Positions 1,523 through 58,732 of a stretch of 64,000 bases of DNA are shown here, one piece after another. The notes under the pieces are model-generated. The model did no database searches. It saw only the letters and a list, made by a program, of their open reading frames with translations, and had not been told where the DNA came from. The position numbers and the translations under genes were made by a program. Each line of letters starts with the position of its first letter. The stretch's first letter is position 1. Location: NCBI RefSeq assembly GCF_014174405.1, contig NZ_JACEGA010000001.1, forward strand, positions 2,892,501 to 2,956,500, read 5' to 3'. Origin of the DNA: Variimorphobacter saccharofermentans. Lineage in GTDB: Bacteria; Bacillota; Clostridia; Lachnospirales; Lachnospiraceae.

Positions 1523-3096
1523 CTTGAGTTTCCGTAGTTTTATCCACAGTATCCCTGTTTCATCAGTATTGTAATAAACAACTTTTAGAAAATGCCCAAA
1601 ATATAAGGAATCCTCATCCTTTTTGTAGTAGAATAATGGTGTCTAAGCAAAATCTACACTAAACAATAAAGAAAGGGACTCCTTATGCTTAATTCTACTA
1701 CAAATACTTACACTTTGAAACGTGAAATTTTATCTTTTTCAAACAAAATATCCCGAAAGCTTTCCAAACCGGATCGAAAGTTTACTGCAGACATGACTTA
1801 TGGCATGTTAGCTTCTGGCAGTTGCCTTCTGACTGATGTTGTGGATCAGCTTCACGAAGATTCCAAAAAGGTCAACAGCGTGGAAAGACTTACCCGACAT
1901 CTCAATAAGGGAATCCATAATTCTGCCTTGTCTTCGTATCTGCATACAATACGTAAATGGGTGCCGGATCAACCAGTTATCCATATCGATGATAGTGATA
2001 TCATCAAGCCTGACGGCTACAAGTTCGAAGCACTGGGACTTGTTCGGGATGGTTCCAAAAGCACCGATACCAAAAATGTCTATGAGAAGGGCTACCATGT
2101 AACAGAGGCTTGTGTTATGACTAAAAGCAATCATCCTGTCAGCATTTATTCTAAAATCCATTCTTCAAAAGAAAAGACCTTCACCTCTGTCAATAACGTA
2201 ACCTTTGATGCCATGGAGCGCGGAAAAGCAATGTTTGGCAAAGCTACTTTTGTAATGGACAGGGGCTATGATGATAATAAGATGTTTCTTAAGCTTGATG
2301 AATTAAAGCAGGACTATGTGATCCGACTTACAGCTAAAAGAAAGCTACTTTTTCATAACAAATGGGTGGCCGCTACTGAACTGCGAAATCGTCGAAAAGG
2401 CAAAATCACAACACCTGTGTTCTATAAGGGCAAAAAAAGGGAAGCTTATCTATCCCATGTGAAGGTTCAAATCACTGCATCCAGAAAGGATATTTATCTG
2501 GTTCTTGTCTATGGCATCACAGAGCATCCGATGATGCTCGCAACAAACAAGGAGATAAAGTCCCGAGAAGATGTAATACGAATTGCAAGGCTTTATTTCT
2601 CCCGCTGGCGCATTGAGGAATATTTCCGCTGCAAGAAACAGGTTTTCCAGTTTGAAAACTTCCGTGTCCGGAAGCTGAAAGCAATTAATGCTCTCAATTT
2701 TTATATCACCTTGTGTATGGCATTTCTTGCTCTGGTTTCAATGAAAGCAGAAACAAATGCCCTAAAGGTTTCAATCATACAGACAGCAGCTCCTGTTAAG
2801 GAGAAAGTTCAGTTCTGCTATTATCGGTTAGCAAAAGGTATCTCCGGCATACTCTCGTATGCAAAAGAAGGCGTCAGGCTATGGTTCAGGACAAAACGTC
2901 CTGCATACCGTCAACTTTGCTTTAAGCTAATCGCTTAAATAGATAAAAGAATACTTATCCCGAAGTCCGGTTTTAAACGGGGCTTATTAAGCTTCTTCTG
3001 ATCTAGATACTGCCACTCTTACACTTAAAAAAATCAGCAAATTGGCACTGTCATTAGATTTATTCATTTTCAAAGTGCAATTTGCGGAAACTCAAG
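1523..3096 (+). mobile_element. IS4-family insertion sequence, copy 1
   Basis: A 1574-bp element with perfect 12-bp terminal inverted repeats (CTTGAGTTTCCG at 1523, CGGAAACTCAAG ending at 3096). It is flanked by a 9-bp direct repeat TATAAATAA at 1514-1522 and 3097-3105, the target duplication. It carries a single transposase gene. A hairpin of about 11 bp near 2960-2990 follows the gene. The same element occurs at 35586-37159 with the same length and an identical encoded protein. Intact ends, an intact gene and a perfect target duplication point to recent insertion. Confidence 0.95.
1685..2938 (+). CDS. IS4-family DDE transposase (copy 1)
   Basis: A 417-residue transposase that would cut and join the element's ends. 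The catalytic acidic residues sit in HIDDSDIIKPDG (first Asp) and FVMDRGYDD (second Asp). The IS4 signature Y-x2-R-x3-E-x6-K is present exactly as YFSRWRIEEYFRCKK, which supplies the third catalytic residue. The N-terminal 90 residues are the usual helical DNA-binding part. The ATG at 1685 follows AAAGGGACT. The copy looks full length and functional. It is oriented toward the amidase gene, which reads in the opposite direction. Confidence 0.95.
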   Translation: MLNSTTNTYTLKREILSFSNKISRKLSKPDRKFTADMTYGMLASGSCLLTDVVDQLHEDSKKVNSVERLTRHLNKGIHNSALSSYLHTIRKWVPDQPVIHIDDSDIIKPDGYKFEALGLVRDGSKSTDTKNVYEKGYHVTEACVMTKSNHPVSIYSKIHSSKEKTFTSVNNVTFDAMERGKAMFGKATFVMDRGYDDNKMFLKLDELKQDYVIRLTAKRKLLFHNKWVAATELRNRRKGKITTPVFYKGKKREAYLSHVKVQITASRKDIYLVLVYGITEHPMMLATNKEIKSREDVIRIARLYFSRWRIEEYFRCKKQVFQFENFRVRKLKAINALNFYITLCMAFLALVSMKAETNALKVSIIQTAAPVKEKVQFCYYRLAKGISGILSYAKEGVRLWFRTKRPAYRQLCFKLIA

Positions 3097-3140
3097 TATA
3101 AATAAGGGGTTAAAATCATCAAAACCACATCATCAAAAAA

Positions 3141-3332
3141 GGGGATGTTGCATAATGTATCAGCCGGGACAATTACTTACCATAATGCACTGTCGGAAGA
3201 ACATATTGCTATATTTTGTATGTCTCATGCGAATATTCATATTCGTATGAGACATACAAAATCAGTGATGTGTCCTTCCGTCTGTGTGTGAGGTAAGTAA
3301 TTGTCCCGGCTGATACATTATGAAACATCCCC
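3141..3332. repeat. 192-nt palindromic element, copy A
   Basis: A nearly complete hairpin. The outer 40 bases on each side (3141-3180 and 3293-3332) are complementary with one mismatch. The middle is imperfectly paired (core CATAATGCACTGTCGG on the left, CCGTCTGTGTGTGAG on the right). The apex is a further stem built on GTATGTCTCAT and ATGAGACATAC. The same element lies at 58041-58231. It sits between convergent genes, 17 bases after the amidase stop codon. It may terminate transcription, be a non-autonomous mobile element, or encode a structured RNA. The GGGxTGTTGCA-like outer ends resemble insertion-sequence termini, which is recollection rather than proof. Confidence 0.85.
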
Positions 3333-3348
3333 TCATTTATGATATTTC

Positions 3349-4701
3349 TTATTTAAATGGAGGCGGAACTCTATGACCGATTACACGTTCCACTTCATAG
3401 GCATATGCGATTAGTTCCATATCCGTCTTTGCTGTCATATAAATTCCAAAGGGCATTCCATCGTCTTGTAAACCACATGGGATTGTTATACCCGGTAATG
3501 CTGTGTATTGTAAAATGTTGTTACAGCTTAACATGATACAAAAATCGAACTCCTTAATTTGTTCTCTAATCGTAGCCATTCGTTCCCTGCGGTCCTGTAG
3601 TACAGACTGATAAATGTCTTCATCCAACCTCCCTGAGGTATTCTCCTGTGCATCAACCAGATAGGTCTGACCATATTTTAAGGTCTTCTCTGGATGCCTT
3701 TCGTTGAATTCAATAATATCACTTAAGGTCTTAATCGGATAATCTTCCGGTAATGTACTTAAGTATTGGTTCATATCATATTTAAACTCGTATTTCATGA
3801 TATCTCTGATATGCTTCGTCTTGGAGATATCCACTTTTCTAATAACTGCTCCTTCTCCCTCTAATTCTTTCATTACATTCTGGATTCTTGTCACAATATT
3901 CTTCGGCATATTTTCCATATTCCAGACATTAAATCCAATCACCTTACCTTTTTGATTATTGTTGTGGTCACGAATCACAGGATATCCTGTTAATGCTGCA
4001 TATAATACTGCACAGTCTTCCACCGTTCTGGCAAACGGCCCTGCTGTATCCAAGGTATGACTGATAGGAATAATTCCTTTCTGGCTGACACTGCCTGTAC
4101 TGGGGCGAAATCCTATAACACCATTCGCGAGCGCCGCAGCAATGATTGAATTACTGGTATCCGTACCGATGGATGCGCTACAGAGATTTGCTGTAACTGC
4201 TACCGCTGAACCGGTACTGGAACCTGAAGGGTCTTTTTCCTTATTATATGGGCTGATTGTTTTTCCACCTCTGGAGCTATATCCTGCGGGCATATTCTCC
4301 GTCATGTAATTCGCAAGCTCAGTCATATTCGTTTTTCCTAGAAGTACTGCGCCAGCTTTTCTAAGATTTTGTATCAACTCCGCGTCACATCTGGCATAGG
4401 AATCCGCTAATGCAAGTGAACCAGCTGATGTATGCATACGATCGGCGGTATCAATATTATCCTTCACTAGAATAGGAATCCCAAATAATAGATTATTTTG
4501 ATCATTTCCCTTCTGATCCAGTTCTTCTGCAATATATAATGCATCCGGATTGATTTCCAGAACACTGTGCAGACCATTCGGTCCCTGATCTATATTCTGA
4601 ATACGTGTAATATATTCTTGTACTAGTTCCTTCACTGATAGTTTCTTCTCATAGAACATGGCTTGGAGTTCTTTTATCGTTTTTTCACAAATATCAAACA
4701 T
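3349..4701 (-). CDS. Amidase signature family hydrolase
   Basis: A 450-residue amidase of the Ser-cisSer-Lys family, hydrolysing a C-N bond of an unknown amide. Lys80 (ILVKDN), Ser161 (DPSGSSTGS) and Ser185 (GTDTSNS) have the spacing of the catalytic triad, including 24 residues between the two serines. The oxyanion-loop segment reads GTDTSNSI where most family members have GTDTGGSI, so substrate handling may differ. No signal peptide is seen, so it should be cytoplasmic. The ATG at 4701 is preceded in frame by a stop codon and has only a weak binding site; a better GGAG lies about 40 bases upstream before a tiny frame. No gatB or gatC is nearby, so a role in tRNA amidation is unlikely. Confidence 0.88.
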   Translation of the reverse strand: MFDICEKTIKELQAMFYEKKLSVKELVQEYITRIQNIDQGPNGLHSVLEINPDALYIAEELDQKGNDQNNLLFGIPILVKDNIDTADRMHTSAGSLALADSYARCDAELIQNLRKAGAVLLGKTNMTELANYMTENMPAGYSSRGGKTISPYNKEKDPSGSSTGSAVAVTANLCSASIGTDTSNSIIAAALANGVIGFRPSTGSVSQKGIIPISHTLDTAGPFARTVEDCAVLYAALTGYPVIRDHNNNQKGKVIGFNVWNMENMPKNIVTRIQNVMKELEGEGAVIRKVDISKTKHIRDIMKYEFKYDMNQYLSTLPEDYPIKTLSDIIEFNERHPEKTLKYGQTYLVDAQENTSGRLDEDIYQSVLQDRRERMATIREQIKEFDFCIMLSCNNILQYTALPGITIPCGLQDDGMPFGIYMTAKTDMELIAYAYEVERVIGHRVPPPFK

Positions 4702-24696: not shown

Positions 24697-24985
24697 ATAA
24701 AAAAACCCGCTCCTCTAATTACTTAGAGGGCGGGAAATCTCACGCGGTACCACCTCATATTTATCAACCATTCACATAGCTGACCTCTTTGAGTACGCCA
24801 AATTAGGTTATACTCTAGCACGGTAACGGGTGCAGGGAATCCGTCAACAGCCTACTTAGTGTTCACTGTTCGGTGTGAAGCTCAAAGATGTATTCGGAAC
24901 ACATTTTCCTGCACCTCTCATCGACCGGTAACTTTCTGTTGGAACGTAGTATTCTTACTCTTTCTTATCATCGCTTTATCTTATT
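24697..24985 (-). ncRNA. Tyrosine T-box leader (riboswitch) of tyrS
   Basis: On the minus strand the conserved T-box sequence GAGGTGGTACCGCG lies at 24743-24756. A specifier triplet TAC (Tyr) lies at 24890-24892 in the context CCGAATACATC, followed by a GAGC stretch. The terminator stem CCCGC(TCCTCTAA) with its U7 tail lies at 24697-24734. Stem I covers roughly 24830-24975. Between the terminator and the gene there is an extra 9-bp stem TATTCAATA/TATTGAATA (24661-24699). Uncharged tRNA-Tyr should pair with the specifier and the T-box bulge and prevent termination. Confidence 0.93.
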
Positions 24986-28879: not shown

Positions 28880-29107
28880 CGGTAATTAGGTTCTGTTCTT
28901 TAGAACATTATGTACCGATGAATAACAGATAGAAAGATGCCAGCCGGAAGCTGGAAATATATCCAGAGTCGGAGTATTTGCACTCGTCGGTACTTAGGCT
29001 CTGTACTTTAGTGCCTTACGTACCGTTACGTAGTGCAATTAAGCGCAAGCGGCTCCGTGGCGGATATATTTCCAGCTTCCGGCTGGCATCTTTCTATCTG
29101 TTATTCA
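28880..29107. repeat. Nested palindrome: 46-bp perfect inverted repeat plus duplicated 38-nt hairpin
   Basis: Positions 28919-28964 and 29062-29107 are perfectly complementary over 46 bp (core GATGCCAGCCGGAAGCTGG). The 97-base interior holds pairing segments CGGAG/CTCCG and TTGCAC/GTGCAA around a 38-nt hairpin (28988-29025, CGGTACTTAGGC with GCCTTACGTACCG). A sister copy of that hairpin (28880-28917, CGGTAATTAGG ... TTATGTACCG) lies just outside the left arm, with 31 of 38 positions identical. The element begins 24 bases after the stop codon of the activase gene. It may be a terminator, a miniature mobile element or an RNA. Confidence 0.85.
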
Positions 29108-29130
29108 CATCTACATGGACATAGGCTACA

Positions 29131-35585: not shown

Positions 35586-37159
35586 CTTGAGTTTCCGTAG
35601 TTTTATCCACAGTATCCCTGTTTCATCAGTATTGTAATAAACAACTTTTAGAAAATGCCCAAAATATAAGGAATCCTCATCCTTTTTGTAGTAGAATAAT
35701 GGTGTCTAAGCAAAATCTACACTAAACAATAAAGAAAGGGACTCCTTATGCTTAATTCTACTACAAATACTTACACTTTGAAACGTGAAATTTTATCTTT
35801 TTCAAACAAAATATCCCGAAAGCTTTCCAAACCGGATCGAAAGTTTACTGCAGACATGACTTATGGCATGTTAGCTTCTGGCAGTTGCCTTCTGACTGAT
35901 GTTGTGGATCAGCTTCACGAAGATTCCAAAAAGGTCAACAGCGTGGAAAGACTTACCCGACATCTCAATAAGGGAATCCATAATTCTGCCTTGTCTTCGT
36001 ATCTGCATACAATACGTAAATGGGTGCCGGATCAACCAGTTATCCATATCGATGATAGTGATATCATCAAGCCTGACGGCTACAAGTTCGAAGCACTGGG
36101 ACTTGTTCGGGATGGTTCCAAAAGCACCGATACCAAAAATGTCTATGAGAAGGGCTACCATGTAACAGAGGCTTGTGTTATGACTAAAAGCAATCATCCT
36201 GTCAGCATTTATTCTAAAATCCATTCTTCAAAAGAAAAGACCTTCACCTCTGTCAATAACGTAACCTTTGATGCCATGGAGCGCGGAAAAGCAATGTTTG
36301 GCAAAGCTACTTTTGTAATGGACAGGGGCTATGATGATAATAAGATGTTTCTTAAGCTTGATGAATTAAAGCAGGACTATGTGATCCGACTTACAGCTAA
36401 AAGAAAGCTACTTTTTCATAACAAATGGGTGGCCGCTACTGAACTGCGAAATCGTCGAAAAGGCAAAATCACAACACCTGTGTTCTATAAGGGCAAAAAA
36501 AGGGAAGCTTATCTATCCCATGTGAAGGTTCAAATCACTGCATCCAGAAAGGATATTTATCTGGTTCTTGTCTATGGCATCACAGAGCATCCGATGATGC
36601 TCGCAACAAACAAGGAGATAAAGTCCCGAGAAGATGTAATACGAATTGCAAGGCTTTATTTCTCCCGCTGGCGCATTGAGGAATATTTCCGCTGCAAGAA
36701 ACAGGTTTTCCAGTTTGAAAACTTCCGTGTCCGGAAGCTGAAAGCAATTAATGCTCTCAATTTTTATATCACCTTGTGTATGGCATTTCTTGCTCTGGTT
36801 TCAATGAAAGCAGAAACAAATGCCCTAAAGGTTTCAATCATACAGACAGCAGCTCCTGTTAAGGAGAAAGTTCAGTTCTGCTATTATCGGTTAGCAAAAG
36901 GTATCTCCGGCATACTCTCGTATGCAAAAGAAGGCGTCAGGCTATGGTTCAGGACAAAACGTCCTGCATACCGTCAACTTTGCTTTAAGCTAATCGCTTA
37001 AATAGATAAAAGAATACTTATCCCGAAGTCCGGTTTTAAACGGGGCTTATTAAGCTTCTTCTGATCTAGATACTGCCACTCTTACACTTAAAAAAATCAG
37101 CAAATTGGCACTGTCATTAGATTTATTCATTTTCAAAGTGCAATTTGCGGAAACTCAAG
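35586..37159 (+). mobile_element. IS4-family insertion sequence, copy 2
   Basis: Same 1574-bp length, ends and gene as the element at 1523-3096; I found no base difference in the stretches compared. The flanking 9-bp direct repeat is TGGCTTCTC (35577-35585 and 37160-37168), different from that of copy 1, so the two copies inserted independently. It sits between the histidine-kinase gene's stop codon and the promoter/hairpin region to its left, oriented against the kinase operon. Confidence 0.95.
35748..37001 (+). CDS. IS4-family DDE transposase (copy 2)
   Basis: A 417-residue transposase identical in every residue to that of copy 1, with the same acidic motifs (HIDDSD, FVMDRGYDD) and the same YFSRWRIEEYFRCKK signature. 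Identity at the nucleotide level of two copies 34 kb apart implies recent copying or ongoing activity. Any read-through from the kinase operon would produce antisense RNA to this gene. Confidence 0.95.
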   Translation: MLNSTTNTYTLKREILSFSNKISRKLSKPDRKFTADMTYGMLASGSCLLTDVVDQLHEDSKKVNSVERLTRHLNKGIHNSALSSYLHTIRKWVPDQPVIHIDDSDIIKPDGYKFEALGLVRDGSKSTDTKNVYEKGYHVTEACVMTKSNHPVSIYSKIHSSKEKTFTSVNNVTFDAMERGKAMFGKATFVMDRGYDDNKMFLKLDELKQDYVIRLTAKRKLLFHNKWVAATELRNRRKGKITTPVFYKGKKREAYLSHVKVQITASRKDIYLVLVYGITEHPMMLATNKEIKSREDVIRIARLYFSRWRIEEYFRCKKQVFQFENFRVRKLKAINALNFYITLCMAFLALVSMKAETNALKVSIIQTAAPVKEKVQFCYYRLAKGISGILSYAKEGVRLWFRTKRPAYRQLCFKLIA

Positions 37160-37180
37160 TGGCTTCTCCTCATATTACCA

Positions 37181-43039: not shown

Positions 43040-44190
<1,151 letters not shown>

Positions 44191-58040: not shown

Positions 58041-58231
58041 GGGCTGTTGCATAATACATTTACAGGGAATATGACTTACCATAATGCACTGTCGGAAGAA
58101 CAGATTGCTGTATTTTGTGTGAATCATGCGATTATTTATATTTGCATGAGACATACAAAATCAGCAATATGTACTTCCGTCTGTGTGTGAGGTAAGTCAT
58201 ATTCCCTGCATGTATATTGTGCAACAGCCCC
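58041..58231. repeat. 190-nt palindromic element, copy B
   Basis: Second copy of the element at 3141-3332, in the same orientation. The inner core (for example CATAATGCACTGTCGGAAG and TCCGTCTGTGTGTGAGG) is almost identical to copy A. The outer arms carry a different sequence, yet still pair with each other (58041-58079 with 58192-58230). It begins 21 bases after one gene's stop and ends seven bases before the stop of the convergent minus-strand gene, so it too lies between 3' ends. Confidence 0.85.
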
Positions 58232-58237
58232 TTTTTC

Positions 58238-58732
58238 TTATATATAATGTATTAACTGTATCAGTCCCGCTGACAGAAGTGCTATGAAGAAGCCAATTAT
58301 AATGCCTTTGCCAGCACCTATGGTATAAAAAAGGGGGTTACGATATTCTTCTACCATATCTTCTGTTCCAGGCACCCAGAATCTCTTACAATTCATAAAA
58401 ATAGCCAAATCCAAAATAAATAAATCATATAAATTTGCAACAAAGAATAAGAAAAATACATAGAAAAATGCTTTTCCAAAGGTTGTAGCTCCTGAATAAT
58501 ATGCGACTACTGACAGGATAAATACAATCACTACAGCTCCCACTATTTTAACCAAGATATGATTTGATTCCTTTTTCTTTATTTTATCCTTATATTGCGG
58601 TAATGACTCCACCCTCTTTCTGACATTAACTGGAAATGACATGATCATACTAGCTGGATCCTTAGCCAAAGGGATTAATATAACGACTGTGAATATTGCA
58701 CATAAGATTAAGCTTTCAATTAGAAATAACAT
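58238..58732 (-). CDS. Four-helix membrane protein, unknown function
   Basis: I do not recognise this 164-residue protein. It has four hydrophobic segments (about residues 3-22, 62-80, 86-110 and 137-160) and a basic loop after the first (NVRKRVESLPQYKDKIKKKE). The third segment carries FYVFFLFFVANLYDLFILDL, and the loop after it has CKRFWVPGTED. The ATG at 58732 follows AAGGGGA inside the end of the preceding frame, so the two are likely translated together. Copy B of the palindromic element follows its stop by seven bases. Confidence 0.65.
   Translation of the reverse strand: MLFLIESLILCAIFTVVILIPLAKDPASMIMSFPVNVRKRVESLPQYKDKIKKKESNHILVKIVGAVVIVFILSVVAYYSGATTFGKAFFYVFFLFFVANLYDLFILDLAIFMNCKRFWVPGTEDMVEEYRNPLFYTIGAGKGIIIGFFIALLSAGLIQLIHYI

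Follow-up and report, generated by a model that had tools for sequence, protein, structure and literature searches.

Among the MITEs and small bacterial palindromic repeats that invite comparison with the family described here are the ERIC, Correia and REPIN elements. Such repeats, BOX and RUP being further examples, are short and non-coding, carry inverted ends and occur in many intergenic copies, all of which applies to the present palindromes as well; the latter differ from them in having arms that vary widely yet stay paired, a near-invariant asymmetric internal loop and sister forms that are devoid of the core. A second related system is the IS1182 family of insertion sequences, one member of which, IS1272, is reported to replace stem-loops without target duplication (PMC5678879). 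The palindromes have ends, GGGGCTGTYGC, that agree with those of the resident IS1182-family element at 10 of 11 bases, and they resemble the family in the absence of target duplication, in an excess of palindromic flanks and in their location at terminator sites; unlike these elements, they contain no transposase gene and consist of one ~190-bp palindrome with a fixed internal loop, and the replacement of stem-loops is, in their case, only presumed. Finally, template switching has been published as both the maker and the keeper of hairpins (PMC8794818). RNA hairpins maintained in this manner show paired changes in both arms and a possible extension of the stem into the flank, as is the case here; that work, however, concerns RNA genes, whereas the present subject is a repeat that is dispersed through one genome in about 100 parallel copies.

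Structure and distribution of the palindromes

The window, by which we mean the whole analyzed stretch of 64,000 nucleotides (G000:C1:2892501-2956500, from a genome of 4.16 Mb), contains two full copies, both on the plus strand. Element A (L001; positions 3141-3332), delineated from the sequence and its RNA fold, is composed of a left outer arm with the terminal GGGGATGTTGC (3141-3174), the left side of a closing helix, ACTTACC (3175-3181), the conserved motif TAATGCACTG on the left side of an internal loop (3183-3192), an inner stem with its apical hairpin (CGGAAG ... CTTCCG; 3194-3280), the conserved motif CTGTGTGTGAGG on the right side of the internal loop (3282-3293), the GG of which starts the right side of the closing helix (GGTAAGT; 3292-3298), and a right outer arm (3299-3332). 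Element B (L022; 58041-58231) has its left and right outer arms at 58041-58073 and 58198-58231 and the motifs TAATGCACTG and CTGTGTGTGAGG at 58082-58091 and 58181-58192, respectively, and differs from A at 34 of 191 aligned positions. A full copy is thus a single hairpin of ~190 nt that consists of the ends (AA)GGGGCTGTTGC/GCAACAGCCCC(TT), variable outer arms and the core, arranged inward as ~34-bp outer arms, closing helix ACTTACC/GGTAAGT, internal loop, inner stem and apical hairpin. The RNA fold of element A has a predicted energy of -132.3 kcal/mol on the plus strand (z = -23) and -118.7 kcal/mol on the minus strand (z = -20.6), and is equaled by none of 200 shuffles in either case.

The features that a preliminary description had attributed to A and B are borne out in full. 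The block at 3157-3175 pairs with 3298-3316 at all 19 positions and the block at 58056-58074 with 58197-58215 at 15 of 19; nine positions differ between the outer-arm blocks of the two copies, six of them being paired in both, and the 45-base inner core starting with ACTTACC shows two differences. Both elements adjoin the 3' end of a minus-strand ORF, encoding 450 aa beside A (3349-4701) and 164 aa beside B (58238-58732), with the ORF edges at 3349 and 58238 lying 16 and 6 bases past the element ends. The observation was, accordingly, correct, and understated as to the size of the family; what it missed is that the family is dispersed and mobile-looking, has IS1182-like ends and includes core-less forms.

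Several other features of the window were recorded. Two identical 1575-bp insertion sequences (1523-3097 and 35586-37160), flanked by 8-bp target duplications, encode a 417-aa DDE transposase (PF01609; IS4-like below cut-off), and the first of them stops 43 bases short of element A. A large inverted repeat with 55-nt arms that are 93% complementary and spaced 97 nt apart, without the element core, lies at 28910-29116, a T-box leader (Rfam RF00230, 105 bits) at 24723-24980 on the minus strand, and two short repeats in tandem, each around a GGAGGA hairpin and 62-63 bases apart, at 44064-44190.

The search of the genome and its relatives with the core, which the preliminary description had proposed, yields about 100 copies in the own genome. 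With up to three mismatches, a 29-base core is found at 85 genome sites, and the left and right core halves at 97 and 89 sites, the reversed controls giving none in each case; the 88 own copies with both core halves served as the working set. A covariance model built from 49 copies and searched across the genus at E 0.001 matches at least 28 of 34 genomes (Mobilitalea/Herbinix group, own genome counted), with at least 101 copies in the own genome, at least 99 in G012 and at least 58 in G009; among the matches listed at this threshold, there are none in G002, G003, G005, G006, G021 and G033. Outside the genus, under stricter filters, at least 4 of 299 family genomes and at least 3 of 246 order genomes match, the own genome being counted in each, and among seven outside loci inspected a single one (L172, in G156) has both motifs clear. 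The motif pair was also seen in 15 stretches from named relatives, namely, Mobilitalea sibirica DSM 26468, MAGs of Herbinix sp. and Lachnoclostridium sp., and a Bacillota soil MAG. The family is, then, mainly a genus-level one with a very uneven copy number. A chance origin of the elements was considered and is ruled out by the fold z-scores of -23 and -20.6 together with the 85 core sites against none in the reversed control. No Rfam family matches at the gathering score, the hits below it being hairpin-like microRNA models with E-values down to 3.8e-19; no relatives were found at the blastn level in plasmid and phage collections, from which near records may be missing; and literature searches, so far as the texts were accessible, returned no paper that shows this palindrome family. 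At one locus (L070), two copies stand in tandem ~164 bases apart and share part of an arm.

The length of the core varies in a discontinuous manner: among the 88 copies, 64 have cores of 119-123 bases, 11 of 141-142, four of 158-162 and two of 178-179. The longer cores carry extra palindromic units at the apex, in steps of ~20 bp (11 copies at 141-142, three at 158-162, one at 179), with lengths of 131, 137 and 152 falling between the steps. In L087 and L097, the length is due to another hairpin at the apex, not to added palindromic units; this hairpin has ends like TGACCCCC...GGGGGTCTA, which presumably recall the termini of the IS3 family.

Pairing in the core and in the outer arms

The motifs TAATGCACTG and CTGTGTGTGAGG are nearly invariant throughout the genus and are opposed in the fold as the internal loop, the wobbles of which are conserved as well (U.G in 47 of the 49 copies, G.U in 40); invariant columns alone could equally mark a DNA-binding site. 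In the 49-copy alignment, 37 of 49 pairs show changes on both sides with the pairing retained, 92.6% of the cells are paired compared to 79.6% after shuffling, and the covariation score is 0.396, compared to 0.157 for the shuffles, which leave the relatedness of the copies uncorrected, and to at most 0.083 when the partners are slid by 1 to 3 columns. If the folded strand is under selection, G.U on that strand should exceed A.C. In the inner stem, the G.U:A.C ratio is 152:44 among 71 copies thinned from 159, against 1.48:1 with swapped arms, and in 86 of the 88 copies it is the plus strand that has the better fold. As G.U far exceeds A.C, we conclude that selection acts on the core as a folded plus strand; most likely, it would serve as a recognition site of the mobilizing machinery.

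The outer arms, in which left arms from different copies are on average 67% identical, are paired preferentially within a copy: the Watson-Crick fraction is 0.83, compared to 0.67 when arms are swapped (maximum of 0.73 in 2000 permutations), in 20 copies thinned from the 34, out of 88, that have equal arm length. Over the first 34 aligned positions, pairing is 80% or more in 47 of the 88 copies, 60-80% in 39 and less in two. The 95th percentile of swapped arms is exceeded by 67 of 71 copies from relatives, a set in which no fewer than two motif pairs are false (the second rows of both L235 and L238), by 55 of 88 own copies, and, in G009 alone, where the copies share a consensus, by two of nine; the poorly paired L016 resembles a chimera of two subfamilies. 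The strand bias of the outer arms is 132:75 overall, with 89:41 in relatives and 43:34 in 27 thinned own copies, against 1.26:1 for swapped arms of own and related copies taken together; for the first 16 bp, it is 58:10 in relatives and 15:15 in the thinned own copies. The near arms of the relatives are therefore under plus-strand structural selection, as the core is, and no strand-specific selection is clearly apparent in the own outer arms. Structural selection, one of the two explanations that the preliminary description had offered for the paired arms, thus holds for the core stem, where the strand bias and the two-sided changes both speak for it, and does not extend in any clear way to the own outer arms.

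The other explanation was the correction of one arm against the other by template switching. Among the 34 own copies analyzed out of 88, there are 118 paired double changes, compared to 41.8 with arms swapped (maximum of 65 in 500), which speaks for copying. Against it, the double changes are not significantly patchy (16 adjacent versus 12.1, p 0.13), single changes that break consensus outer pairs lean toward G.U (60 versus 44 A.C), and relatives have the G.U excess in the first 16 outer bp given above. Pair swaps in the own outer arms comprise 87 transversion versus 55 transition cells (26 and 23 distinct column types), and those in the own inner stem 11 and 39 (7 and 13 types). This transversion excess is no clean signal, since the inner stems of relatives also show an excess (59:46) and the innermost 10 outer pairs of the own genome do not (7:9), so that the contrast is confined to the own genome. 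A more direct indication comes from L033. In this copy, a host tandem repeat of four 68-bp units supplies the left outer arm, which corresponds to the beginning of the fourth and last unit; the right arm is an inverted copy of the same stretch. L033 favors an origin of one arm by copying of its counterpart and, with the lack of a clear strand bias, lends the template-switching explanation support as regards the own outer arms, of which template switching may be the main keeper. The lengthening of apices in steps of ~20 bp likewise speaks for copying between arms; the core lengths of 131, 137 and 152, which do not fit the steps, and the different hairpin in L087 and L097 count on the opposite side. 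Arms that match flanking sequence had been named in advance as an argument against structural selection; L033 is such a case, and the match is established for that copy, not family-wide.

These results bear on the possibility that the hairpin functions in its entirety as a structured RNA, in which selection acting on each copy keeps all stems paired, the outer arms included. The covariation well above both controls, the conserved wobbles and the excess of G.U in the inner stem and in the relatives' first 16 outer base pairs are what such an RNA would be expected to display, but the own outer arms are without a clear strand bias, the copies show no preferred orientation with respect to the gene that faces them with its 3' end (29 against, 20 with), six of the 34 genus genomes are without a listed match, palindromes without the core occur, the arms of L033 derive from a host repeat, and Rfam contributes no match at the gathering score. 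We therefore consider an RNA role for the entire hairpin doubtful.

Insertion sites, ends and candidate enzymes

The copies are found primarily next to the 3' ends of genes. As judged with a simple ORF-calling script, convergent genes flank 33 of the 88 copies, 49 face one 3' end, two lie between divergent genes, two are inside an ORF and two could not be assigned. Furthermore, AA precedes the ends in 53-56 of 74 copies and TT follows in 49-53. The position next to the 3' ends of genes of either strand, together with a G+C-rich foot that is preceded by AA and followed by TT, is compatible with the copies being retained as bidirectional transcription terminators, their pairing selected for that use. 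A terminator needs pairing only at the foot of the stem. Here, in contrast, pairing extends along the whole hairpin, the fixed internal loop would be left unexplained, T runs are weak from the third base on (22-37 of the 74 copies at each position, against a background of 0.31) and host terminator-like hairpins stand intact beside some copies (L029, L065, L016), which makes retention as terminators an unlikely explanation. The intact neighboring hairpins also indicate that not every target was replaced.

Target duplications show no excess over swapped flanks in the 74 of 88 copies compared. The flanks, on the other hand, pair with each other across the element more than expected (mean score 3.42 versus 1.38), and seven of the 74 copies reach a score of at least 8 where swapped flanks predict 0.2, a count that includes two copies with flanks related to each other (L017 and L078). 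A flank of the form GAGCC...TGTATC/GACGAAGAA recurs to the left of L029, L037, L066, L017 and L078; it could be either an additional module or a terminator that is repeated.

Several pairs of copies stand at shared or neighboring positions: L033 and L119 have the same gene pair on either side and opposite orientation, as do L029 and L198; L065 and L122 have one gene in common and opposite orientation; L074 and L156 have the right-hand gene in common; and L016 and L144 lie in a common neighborhood with a different gap. Either independent insertion or inversion may account for these pairs. Among 104 sites compiled by hand, 62 copies are oriented against and 42 with the replichore, given a skew switch near 2.0 Mb, which is unconvincing; the best free strand split has breakpoints near 0.8 and 2.85 Mb, away from the skew switch (permutation p 0.0185). 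No autonomous copy, that is, an ORF between core halves, was seen among the inspected core-half sites, those without a partner being shortened or decayed cores.

The own genome contains three near-identical elements of the IS1182 family (NF033551, 324 bits, cut-off 270). Their ends, GGGGCTGTCGC, equal the palindrome end GGGGCTGTTGC at all but one of 11 bases and can each form a hairpin, and no target duplication is apparent by reading; the rest of the resident element contains none of the four core motifs searched. Given the similar ends, the absence of target duplication and the IS1272 precedent, we take the palindrome to behave like an element of the IS1182 type, of which it is a candidate member. 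Being near-identical, the resident copies must be recent, whereas many of the palindromes are old and diverged. A full-length IS1182 transposase is present in only two of 34 genus genomes (G000, G015), PF13751 in four of 34, and G012, with its large number of palindromes, has no match to the transposase; hence, either the transposase comes and goes, or another enzyme acts. One IS1182-family copy (L265, G000:C1:2738617-2742018) has its end directly next to a Y1 (PF01797) transposase gene, on the 3' side of that gene.

Two other candidate partners were rejected. For a REPIN-like link to a Y1 transposase (TnpA-REP), the distribution does not fit: PF01797 is present in 18 of 34 genomes, including the copy-free G002, G005 and G006, and absent from several that bear copies, such as G026 and G030. 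The insertion sequence at 1523-3097 has other ends and generates 8-bp duplications.

Core-less forms and the nature of the family

The end pattern, with up to three mismatches, occurs at 176 sites, compared to 10 for the reversed control. Of 20 sites drawn from those listed among the 176 and located away from known long copies, 16 are palindromes without the full core, as judged from folds read by eye; six of the core-less palindromes have the tip GYAAGY in common, and three (L284, L291, L295) keep a partial core. The occurrence of such palindromes shows that palindrome and core can be separated and that the former does not require the latter. It also raises the question of whether the core alone is mobile and inserts into the tips of older palindromes, in which case the differing paired arms would be those of the target. 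Core-less palindromes with the same ends and a shared tip would be the expected targets, and the arms of L062 and L080 are indeed unlike the consensus. However, the long form, too, has GTAAGY at its inner edge, so that loss of the core also explains the tips, the partial cores of L284, L291 and L295 look like deletions, and the close copies L013, L021 and L022 have both arms and core in common; mobility of the core on its own is, in our estimate, very improbable.

The interpretation that we favor, to which we would give an even chance, is that the elements are non-autonomous mobile palindromes, similar to MITEs, that transpose in the IS1182 manner, with outer arms kept paired by copying and a core that is selected separately. 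The large family with its uneven copy number across the genus, the coupling of the arms, the strand bias of the core, the position at 3' ends of genes, the lack of target duplications and the IS1182-like termini are direct observations; the acting transposase, the replacement of stem-loops, the part of template switching in the upkeep of the own outer arms and the role of the core are what we infer. Under this scenario, an IS1182-like transposase, or another enzyme with the same preference for ends and targets, would recognize the ends GGGGCTGTYGC, and the palindrome would enter or replace stem-loops such as terminators just past stop codons, without the target being duplicated. Once inserted, a copy would be a long hairpin in which replication could copy one outer arm from the other by template switching, such that a change in one arm would subsequently appear in both and an arm could take in flanking host sequence. 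The core, with its inner stem and near-fixed internal loop, is under separate selection as a folded plus strand, either RNA or single-stranded DNA.

More tentatively, and well short of an even chance, the family could represent a mobile hairpin of a new type, in which recognition of the folded plus strand (RNA or single-stranded DNA) takes place at the fixed asymmetric internal loop, host stem-loops are the sites to which the hairpin is moved, and the arms are rewritten in place by hairpin-templated copying that is able to take in host sequence. If this is the case, strong covariation, which is widely regarded as the foremost indication of functional RNA structure, would arise without any RNA function in the outer arms. 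The existence of about 100 parallel copies in a single genome, together with many species, makes it possible to separate, within one molecule, selection, as seen in the strand-biased inner stem, from mutational copying of the arms, as may apply to the outer arms of the own genome, which have no clear bias. For the IS1182 elements that target stem-loops, the family also provides a candidate non-autonomous partner.
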